NCBI GenBank assembly: GCA_020831625.1 | Contig: JAFIGD010000021.1 | Location: 1-64,000 of the forward strand | Reading direction: 5' to 3' | DNA: 64,000 nucleotides | DNA from: Verrucomicrobiota bacterium | GTDB taxonomy: Bacteria; Verrucomicrobiota; Kiritimatiellia; SS1-B-03-39; UBA6053 | Shown: piece by piece, positions 27,655 to 47,552 of the stretch | Position numbering within the stretch: position 1 is the stretch's first letter | How the letters are laid out: each line of letters opens with the position of its first letter | Notes under the pieces: generated by a model | Databases searched by the model: none | Told to the model about the DNA's origin: nothing | The model's input: the letters and a program-made list of their open reading frames with translations, nothing else | Made by a program: the position numbers and the translations under genes

Positions 27655-27700
27655 ATATCAATAAAAAAACAATTTAAATGTTATTTATTCTGTGCTACAG
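27655..27700 (+). promoter_or_regulatory. Recurrent AT-rich upstream element, copy 1 (GH94 promoter)
   Basis: The AT-rich element lies 46 bp before the GH94 ATG and contains AATAAAAAAACA then TTTAAATGTTA. TGCTACAG at its 3' end resembles an extended -10. The same pattern recurs at 30446, 36841, 42781 and 47501, upstream of other carbohydrate-related genes. Confidence 0.45.
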
Positions 27701-27745
27701 GGTGAACGAATCTTTTGTTTAACCCGGAAAGGCGGACGAATTCTT

Positions 27746-30109
27746 ATGAAATACGGATCATTTATTGACGACGGTGCGGTTTTTGAAATCACCAACCCCG
27801 ACACCCCCCGTCCCTGGGTGAATTTTCTGACCAACGGCCGCTACGGGGCCCTGTGCTCGCACCGGGGAGGCGGGTTCAGTTTTCATTTGGACCACCGCTG
27901 TCATGCGATCCTCCGCCGGGGTCCCCAAATCCATTACGAGGATTCCCCGGGCCGCCTGCTCTACATCCGGGATCTGGACTCCGGGGAACTGTGGACCGCC
28001 AACGTTTCCCCGTTGAACCGTTGCGACCGCTTCCAGGCACAGCACGGGGCGGGCTACACCCGCCTGAAATCCGCCTGCAGCGGCGTGGAGAGCGAGTTGT
28101 TGTTTTTTGTGCCCTGGGAGATGGACGCGGAGGTCTGGCGGGTGCGGGTGAAAAACACGTCGGGACGTCCCCGGCGGCTGGCGGTCACCGCCCTGGCCGA
28201 ATTCGTGCTCGGCAACATGTCCCTGGAGGACCACGAGGCGGCTTTTATGTCGCTTTTCAATGACTCCAAGGTTGGCGAACAGCATCTGGAGTTTGTGAAA
28301 AACTGGTGGCATCCGCACTTTGGCTGGTCGGAGGAAAACGGCACCTGGAAACACCGCGCGGTCTTCAGTTCCACCGTGCCCTTTGATTCAGCCTGCACGG
28401 ACCGGGAGGCCTTTATCGGACCCTTTCGGAACCATGCCAATCCCCTCGGACTGCAGGGCGACCGGCTGCCGGAAGGCGCGTTCACCGGGCAGCCGCTGGC
28501 GGGGGTGATGCAGTGGCGGATCGATCTGGCCCCGGAGCAAAGCTGGGAAACGGATTTGTCCATCACCCTGATTCCCCGCGAAGCCGACGCGTCCGCCGAT
28601 CCCGGCGTGCTGCGGCTGCAATCGCCGGGTGAGTGTGAAGAGCTGTTTTCATCCACGCAGGATGCGTGGCGGAAGCTGTTTGACCGGGTGGAGGTGCGCA
28701 CCCCCGACGCGTCCATCAACCGCATGACCAATCACTGGATTAAACTTCAGACTTTCGTCACCTTTTCCCACGGGCGGGGTCCCTCGTATTATCACAAGGG
28801 GCAATATCGGGGGATGCGCGACGCCTGTCAGGACACCTACGGGTTCACGGTGCTGGATCCGCAGCGGGCCCGGGAGAATATCCTTCGCATTGCCGCGTTT
28901 TTCTTTGCCGACGGCCGCTGCGCGGGGGGCTGTAACCTCATAGGCCTTCCCGAACATCCCGCTGACAAGTCCGATCTGCCGCTCTGGATTATTCTGACCG
29001 TGGCCGATTACCTGCGGGAGACCGGGGACACCGCAATTCTCGACGAAACGCTGCCGCTTCTGGACGGCGGGGCGTCCACCATCCTCGACAAAATGCGGGC
29101 CGGGGTTGCCCGCATGTTGGATCAACGCGGTCCCCATGGGCTGCCGCTCATCGGAAAGGGTGACTGGAATGATGCGGCCAATGCGATCGGGGCCGGCGGC
29201 CGCGGTGAGAGTGTTTGGCTGGCGCAGTTTTTGATTTTTGTCATTGGCGAGCTGGCCCCGCTGCTGAAGGGGAGGGGGCTGACAGAAGAGTCGGAGAAAC
29301 TCCGCAACCGCTCCGCCGAGCTGAAGGACATCATCAACACATCCTGCTGGGACGGGGAATGGTTCACCCGCGCCTTCAAGGATGACGGCACGCCCGTGGG
29401 CGTGAGGGGGCAGAAAGAGGGGTTCATCTGGATCAACTCCCAGACATGGGCGGTGCTCTCCAACTGTGCGCCGCGGGAACGGCTGGACGCCTGCATGGAT
29501 TCCGTGGAGCGCCATCTCGGCACCGCGCACGGCCTCATGAATCTCGGTCCGGCCTACACCCGCATCGACGAAAGCATCGGGATTATCACCCGCTTCCGGC
29601 CCGGCTGGAAAGAGAACGGCGGGGTGTTCTCGCACGCCAGCGCCTTCAACATCGTGGCCCGGGCCCGGCTGGGACGCGGGGCGGACGCGGTGGATCTCTT
29701 CAAACGCCTGCTGCCCGACGGAAAAGAGTCGGATCTCTACAAAATGGAGCCCTACATCTTCTCCCAGTTCGTCGCGGGACTCGGCGATCCTGAAAATCAT
29801 GGCCAGGGCGCGTTCCACTGGCTCACCGGCACCTCCGCCTGGATGCTGCGCGCCATGACCGACCACATCCTCGGTGTGCGCACGGAAGCGAAGGGCCTGC
29901 GGATCGATCCCGCCGTTCCTCCGGAGTGGAAAGAGTTCTCCATGCGGCGCGAATATCGCGGCGCGGTGTACGACATCCATTTCCGCAATCCGAACGGTGT
30001 GCAGAACGGCGTGCGCGAAGTCCAACTGGACGGAACCCCGCTCCCCGACACCCTGGTTCCGGAACAGCCTCCCTGCGGGATCTACCGGGTGGATGTGATC
30101 CTGGGCTGA
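27746..30109 (+). CDS. GH94 family disaccharide phosphorylase
   Basis: A 787-residue cytosolic enzyme. It phosphorolyses a beta-linked disaccharide or oligosaccharide to sugar-1-phosphate plus a shorter sugar. Markers are the GDWNDAANAIG motif at about 471-481 with the catalytic Asp, GRGESVWLAQFL after it, and the conserved YHKGQYRGMRDACQDTYG and GQGAFHWLTGT blocks. Cellobiose, N,N'-diacetylchitobiose, laminaribiose and cellobionic acid phosphorylases share this family, so the substrate cannot be given. The ATG at 27746 is preferred over 27692 (weak ribosome site GGAAAGG). It is divergent from the large GH gene; both are probably controlled from the shared 166-bp gap. The lack of a signal peptide means it acts inside the cell. 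Confidence 0.9.
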   Translation: MKYGSFIDDGAVFEITNPDTPRPWVNFLTNGRYGALCSHRGGGFSFHLDHRCHAILRRGPQIHYEDSPGRLLYIRDLDSGELWTANVSPLNRCDRFQAQHGAGYTRLKSACSGVESELLFFVPWEMDAEVWRVRVKNTSGRPRRLAVTALAEFVLGNMSLEDHEAAFMSLFNDSKVGEQHLEFVKNWWHPHFGWSEENGTWKHRAVFSSTVPFDSACTDREAFIGPFRNHANPLGLQGDRLPEGAFTGQPLAGVMQWRIDLAPEQSWETDLSITLIPREADASADPGVLRLQSPGECEELFSSTQDAWRKLFDRVEVRTPDASINRMTNHWIKLQTFVTFSHGRGPSYYHKGQYRGMRDACQDTYGFTVLDPQRARENILRIAAFFFADGRCAGGCNLIGLPEHPADKSDLPLWIILTVADYLRETGDTAILDETLPLLDGGASTILDKMRAGVARMLDQRGPHGLPLIGKGDWNDAANAIGAGGRGESVWLAQFLIFVIGELAPLLKGRGLTEESEKLRNRSAELKDIINTSCWDGEWFTRAFKDDGTPVGVRGQKEGFIWINSQTWAVLSNCAPRERLDACMDSVERHLGTAHGLMNLGPAYTRIDESIGIITRFRPGWKENGGVFSHASAFNIVARARLGRGADAVDLFKRLLPDGKESDLYKMEPYIFSQFVAGLGDPENHGQGAFHWLTGTSAWMLRAMTDHILGVRTEAKGLRIDPAVPPEWKEFSMRREYRGAVYDIHFRNPNGVQNGVREVQLDGTPLPDTLVPEQPPCGIYRVDVILG

Positions 30110-30229
30110 GCGGGGAGGGATAGGAAAACGGACGGCGATACAGGCCTTTCCAGGCCGTCACCGGAGTCTACAGGGTAACAGCATCATGCAAAATTCCCGG
30201 CTCCATCACTTCCAACGAATGCAATGCAC

Positions 30230-47300: not shown

Positions 47301-47438
47301 CGGGTGCATCTCAACCTCGACATCCGCCAGCGCGGACTGGGCACCGCCAGTTGCGGACCGGATACCCTCGAGCCCTACATCATAAAACCGTGTGTTTTCC
47401 GCAAGATCTGGTGGCTCCGCGTTCCCGAAAACCGGTAA
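44358..47438 (+). CDS. lacZ: GH2 beta-galactosidase (LacZ type)
   Basis: 1026 residues, the normal size for LacZ-type GH2. It hydrolyses terminal beta-galactosides. The acid/base E458 lies in [10 protein letters not shown] and the nucleophile E536 in [10 protein letters not shown]. The upstream GVNRHDHDP and [10 protein letters not shown] blocks are typical, and a C-terminal small domain (about 750-1010) is present. No signal peptide. ACAGGAG lies 7 bp upstream of the ATG. It ends with no clear terminator in 47439-47586. Confidence 0.95.
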
Positions 47439-47500
47439 ACGCTATGAAGCATGCAATCATCGGCCGGGAGCCTTGCTTAAAAATTTCCTATTTTTTGCTT

Positions 47501-47552
47501 GCTAATAAAAGTACAAAGTAATTTAATGTGATACAGTTCTTTTATTAAACAG
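47501..47552 (+). promoter_or_regulatory. Recurrent AT-rich upstream element, copy 5
   Basis: AATAAAAGTACAAAG then ATTTAATGTGATACAG and TTTTATTAAACAG, before the PEP-CTERM gene. Like copies 1-4 it has AATAAAA, an ACA, then TTTAATGTN. Confidence 0.4.

Follow-up and report, generated by a model that had tools for sequence, protein, structure and literature searches.

Five AT-rich sites beside pectin-type enzyme genes of a Verrucomicrobiota bacterium are probably separate promoter regions, one pair of them duplicated

Introduction

The closest described counterparts of the sites analysed here are sigma-70/RpoD promoter regions with an UP-like tract, extended -10 promoters (TGnTATAAT) and the dyad operators of carbohydrate regulators of the LacI/AraC type. 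The five sites, referred to as copies 1 to 5, lie in a window of 64,000 nucleotides at the start of a 77 kb contig (bases 1-64000), with a GC content of 60%, in a Verrucomicrobiota genome of 4.89 Mb on 111 contigs. They resemble sigma-70 promoter regions in that they are A/T-rich, non-coding and situated about 35-170 nt from start codons, and in that the window also carries the gene for a canonical RpoD; they differ in having no strong TTGACA/TATAAT pair, and their assignment to this class is by location and composition rather than by mapped starts. TGCTATAAG and TGCTACAG resemble an extended -10 promoter, but such strings stand at varying distances from the rest of the element and do not rise above shuffles. 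A perfect AACA-N7-TGTT dyad like those of LacI/AraC-type operators is present in copies 1 and 3, whereas the other copies lack it and it is not enriched in the genome.

Pectin-type enzyme genes are abundant around the sites (GH28, GH43, GH2/lacZ, GH94, sulfatase and pectate-lyase-like by Pfam), and a rhamnogalacturonidase-like gene is also among the neighbours. The GH94 protein has as its closest named relative a protein of a Lentisphaerae metagenome-assembled genome, at 54% identity. An initial annotation had read the five sites as copies of one recurrent upstream element of carbohydrate-region genes, with A/T-rich AATAAAA, an ACA and a core in a fixed order.

Results

Composition, strings and location of the sites

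All five sites and the strings quoted for them are present, with coordinates right to within a few bases (Table 1). Over 60 bp they have 17-27% GC and all rank in the top eight 60-mers of the window by AT content, and their composition and location bear out that they are AT-rich, non-coding and upstream of genes. The proposed order of blocks held in part: AATAAAA occurs in copies 1, 2, 3 and 5, but copy 4 has AAAACGTAAAACA instead. Likewise, the core TTTAATGTT is exact in copy 2 only, with variants in the other four copies (TTAAATGTT in copies 1 and 3, CAATTGTTA in copy 4 and TTTAATGTG in copy 5). On its own this core is not rare, with 10 matches at up to one mismatch vs 5.2 expected, a number reached in 6 of 100 shuffles. 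AATAAAA followed by ACA was observed 8 times vs 0.25 expected, in a control that ignores local AT-richness.

Table 1. Coordinates of the AT-rich sites, their neighbouring genes, duplicated pieces and predicted promoter matches in the window
Feature	Position	Strand	Details
Further AT island, same general kind	20605..20664	.	Upstream of FAD-oxidoreductase gene (plus)
Secreted-protein gene left of copy 1	23617-27579	minus	Start ~27573-27579
Copy 1 AT island	27629..27704	.	17% GC; secreted-protein gene/GH94 divergent gap
Best sigma-70-like match, copy 1	27650..27678	minus	Predicted TTTAAA-17-TATTTT; p 0.09 vs shuffles
GH94 gene right of copy 1	ATG 27746	plus	GH94 Pfam E 5e-105
PEP-CTERM gene 3' end remnant	30232..30441	plus	84% to 48145-48354
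Copy 2 AT island	30441..30500	.	27% GC; PEP-CTERM 3' remnant/FAD-oxidoreductase gap
Best sigma-70-like match, copy 2	30467..30495	plus	Predicted TTGTAA-16-TATGTT, -10 at 30490-30495; p 0.07 vs shuffles
FAD-oxidoreductase gene after copy 2	ATG 30505	plus	PF12831 E 7.6e-102
Second collinear block of duplication (= 26992-27065)	36558..36630	.	81%
Decayed duplicate of copy 1 region (27510-27704)	36698..36893	.	178 nt at 70%, E 2.5e-8
Copy 3 AT island	inside 36698..36893	.	GspK-like gene/TIM-barrel gene gap
Best sigma-70-like match, copy 3	36835..36863	minus	Predicted TTTAAA-17-TATATT; p 0.035 vs shuffles
Small secreted-protein gene left of copy 4	start ~42764	minus	
Copy 4 AT island	42771..42832	.	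25% GC
GH28 gene after copy 4, then lacZ-type GH2	ATG 42934	plus	Pfam
Copy 5 AT island	47489..47560	.	20% GC; upstream of intact PEP-CTERM gene
Intact PEP-CTERM protein gene after copy 5	ATG 47587	plus	PF07589
Further AT island	58994..59053	.	Upstream of Golvesin-repeat/pectate-lyase-like gene (minus)

The proposed link to carbohydrate genes is not supported: the gaps that contain copies 1, 3 and 4 are divergent, and these copies could just as well act on the minus-strand genes, which encode a secreted protein (copy 1), a GspK-like protein (copy 3) and a small secreted protein (copy 4). As a class, AT islands in this genome favour DNA upstream of genes over coding DNA and convergent gaps, as promoter regions do: per kb there are 1.52 islands where the gap is divergent, 0.93 where it is co-directional and 0.28 where it is convergent, and 0.007 within coding DNA. 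Two other upstream AT islands of the genome (L031:17464 and L032:8440) have strings like GTGTACTTCTAGTATGTTT / ACACCTAGTATGTTT in common. On the minus strand at 52663-58884 of the window are two adjoining proteins in which the Golvesin C-terminal domain is repeated (two matched stretches in one protein, four in the other), the DNA identity between repeats being up to 75-78%.

Copies 1 and 3 are duplicates

The initial annotation had copies 1 and 2 partly alike through a duplication and copies 3-5 separate; the related pair is instead copies 1 and 3, copy 3 being a duplicate of copy 1. By self-BLAST, 27510-27683 matches 36698-36868 (70%, E 2.5e-8), and the spacing of this match and the second collinear block points to an internal deletion of about 380 nt in the duplicate on the copy 3 side (36558-36868). 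The peptide LRSEAPPIVQPTPPKK is still in frame in the second block. What was duplicated, and has since decayed, is a piece of the secreted-protein gene left of copy 1 (its 5' end) together with the DNA upstream of that gene, which explains why copies 1 and 3 are more alike than the other copies. The remnant now sits between the GspK-like gene, which starts near 36506, and the TIM-barrel gene. That the minus-strand neighbours of these two copies are full paralogues was considered and rejected, since a short remnant is all they share. Over a 35-nt core, copies 1 and 3 are 91% identical, compared with about 70% for the flanking sequence (p 0.009, or 0.04 when A/T columns alone are counted), which hints at constraint.

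Copy 2 adjoins a second duplicated piece, the PEP-CTERM remnant, whose intact relative is a PEP-CTERM gene 18 kb away; the homology between the two ends at the stop codon (30441), where copy 2 starts. The upstream regions of several PEP-CTERM genes (L081, L087 and window 48570-48600) share strings like TTTGCGG..AGCATATACRGGAA / CCGTATACGGTAA, a possible candidate for a PEP-CTERM promoter motif.

The sites do not define a motif beyond the window

Since whole-window shuffles destroy local AT-richness, we used other AT islands of the genome as the control, namely 151 islands from a sample of about 0.76 Mb. In pairwise local alignments of copies 1-5, several pairs exceeded random islands (copies 3 and 4 with z of about 6; 1 and 4, and 4 and 5, about 4.7). 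When the independent copies 1, 2, 4 and 5 were compared with their own shuffles, only 0-2 of 300 shuffles were as good at widths of 22-40, and 14-25 of 300 at width 16, where there was no clear excess. Against random draws of four islands, the four copies were matched in 0 of 200 draws with a flat background (widths 22-40) and in 57-92 of 200 with an AT background. These comparisons carry a selection effect, in that the initial annotation chose four or five from about ten islands in the window. We therefore also searched for the best four of nine islands in the window and in random sets: with an AT background 222 of 240 and 137 of 240 random sets were as good, and with a flat background 5 of 100 and 2 of 100, which is borderline. 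De novo search of the nine independent window islands gave p values between about 0.02 and 0.9 according to the statistic used, and the best blocks of the four-of-nine search differ from those originally proposed. This unbiased search is at or near chance.

The register of the MAFFT alignment moved when copy 4 was removed. A 22-nt matrix built without a given copy ranked the held-out site behind just 0 to 81 of the 1.5 million remaining positions; because the register had been set with all copies included, these ranks are biased upward. When profile models were realigned with the test copies left out, the window scores were 8.2 bits for copy 4, 8.6 for copy 1 and 6.5 for copy 3 (window E 0.29-1.5); genome-wide, the models did not recover the held-out copies, and an unrelated site scored 12.2 bits. 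The full model retrieved its five training copies from the whole genome and then only matches at E 0.05, 0.5 and 1.3, the best outside the window being at E = 0.05, and 20 related genomes contained no match better than E 0.09, a chance level. No similar block is present in the gap ahead of the closest relative of the GH94 gene (54% identity). Paralogues of the PEP-CTERM gene that follows copy 5 also lack the block (best score 6.4 vs 24), and a PEP-CTERM family promoter was on this account rejected. Two-block expectation maximization on 324 upstream regions yielded no convincing -35/-10 or TTTAATGTT block above a reversed control, k-mer enrichment returned start-codon and palindrome strings without the motif among them, and a literature search for such a motif found nothing. 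A single recurrent element found no support in the leave-one-out models, the whole-genome search, the relatives or the PEP-CTERM paralogues.

Other repeated sequences were also found. A palindrome, TTTTCCGA-N3-TCGGAAAA with a variable centre, occurs at window positions 3258-3308, 14424-14474 and 48612-48662 and genome-wide; it contains TTTTCCGANNNTCGGAAAA and is usually present in at least two copies at exactly 31 nt spacing (23 of 29 close pairs). Its 15-nt core TTCCGANNNTCGGAA has 269 occurrences in this genome (none in the control); there are 135-364 in each of three genomes of the same genus, 2-144 in other family members and 0-4 outside the family. The repeat is densest in convergent gaps (0.99/kb) and is also found inside called genes. 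It looks like a family-wide REP-like repeat or protein-binding array, and it is more striking than the AT-rich sites. Hexamer arrays (TTAATC / GATTAAGATTACG) are likewise dispersed in intergenic DNA genome-wide (window 161-230 and 4682-4730; elsewhere, for example, L024:8533 and L009:9677).

Promoter signals

The RpoD gene of the window (10606-12723) encodes regions 2.4 and 4.2 that match solved RpoD proteins, and canonical hexamers are therefore expected; TTGACA-16/17-TATCAA/TAATGT was found upstream of two of the six tRNA genes. Among the twelve strand-site tests made at the AT-rich sites, the best sigma-70-like matches were those on the minus strand of copies 1 and 3 and the plus strand of copy 2 (Table 1), and the other strand-sites were at chance. 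On the minus strand of copy 1 an alternative, TTTAAA-15-TATATT, scores slightly higher; the pair points toward the secreted-protein gene, and the equivalent hexamers are kept in copy 3. The best minus-strand matches of both copies fall inside the 35-nt core. Given twelve tests, it is only a suggestion that a minus-strand promoter may have been carried along with the duplicated piece.

Discussion

We consider it likely that the five sites represent ordinary AT-rich promoter regions, each separate from the others apart from one duplicated pair, in a bacterium of about 60% GC. RNA polymerase with the housekeeping sigma factor needs -35/-10 and upstream contact sequences that are A/T-rich and melt easily, and DNA just upstream of genes would be AT-rich for this reason; AATAAAA, ACA and TTTAATGTT could then recur in similar order through composition. 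The AT-richness, the position upstream of genes, the duplication and the absence of a genome-wide motif are observed; promoter activity of each island, its recognition by sigma-70 and the direction of transcription are what we infer. Several results count against this explanation: the excess over self-shuffles at 22-40 nt, the flat-background draws, the alignment of copies 3 and 4, and the highly identical core of copies 1 and 3.

Alternatively, a transcription factor for the pectin/rhamnogalacturonan cluster might bind AACA-n-TTTAAA-n-TGTT / TTTAATGTTA in the gaps and co-regulate the genes, a reading that the ordered blocks common to copies 1, 3 and 4, the excess of the four independent copies over their shuffles and the neighbouring GH28, GH43, GH2, GH94 and rhamnogalacturonidase-like genes would favour. 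The perfect AACANTTNAANTGTT dyad occurs at copies 1 and 3 only in the whole genome, but it is missing from copies 2, 4 and 5, and its genome-wide matches at up to one mismatch number 7 vs 4 in the control. The distance from ACA to TGT varies (7, 9, 7, 9 and 11 nt), unlike a dimer site, AACA-N-TGTT in intergenic DNA has no spacing peak at 7 or 9, the held-out copies were not recovered genome-wide, and the window proteins scanned with Pfam include no regulator gene. We thus regard such binding as improbable, and give the same small chance to the specific form in which the pectin-type cluster is co-regulated through a weak operator, AACA...TTTAATGTTA, that is confined to this locus and has been kept in both duplicate copies (91% core vs about 70% flank). 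Descent of all five islands from one ancestral upstream region, locally copied and then diverged, is similarly unlikely. Copies 1 and 3 are proven duplicates, copy 2 abuts the duplicated PEP-CTERM fragment, the alignment of copies 2 and 5 extends to ATGAATMAWCCCCAC, and a gapped alignment of about 55 nt joins copy 4 to copies 1 and 3; however, self-BLAST at E 1e-3 finds copies 1 and 3 as the sole island pair, the PEP-CTERM homology ends before copy 2, and the minus-side genes at copies 1, 3 and 4 are not paralogous proteins, the short remnant between copies 1 and 3 being all that is shared.

Less probable still is the original proposal of plus-strand promoters whose extended -10 boxes stand behind a common upstream element. 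The strings in question exist, as TGCTACAG at 27693-27700 (copy 1), TGCTATAAG at 36885-36893 (copy 3) and TGCTTTACAG at 42822-42831 (copy 4), they align as the last block of these copies, and copy 4 can be read as TTGTTA-17-TTTACA preceded by TG. The remainder of the proposal did not hold up: the core-to-TGCTA distance is 10, 17 and 15 nt, so that TGn and the -10 hexamer have no consistent position relative to the upstream element, the plus-strand promoter scores are no better than shuffles (p 0.98, 0.59, 0.26 and 0.25 for copies 1, 3, 4 and 5), and copies 1 and 3 have their best match on the minus strand.

Separate AT-rich promoter regions thus remain the explanation that we favour. In a GC-rich genome, AT-rich promoter-type gaps can imitate a common motif; the sites carry little weight as a discovery, and the control needs to come from other AT-rich islands and not from shuffling the whole genome. 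If the weak local signal did reflect a true operator, it would mark out a small regulon with which an uncultured lineage uses plant polysaccharides.
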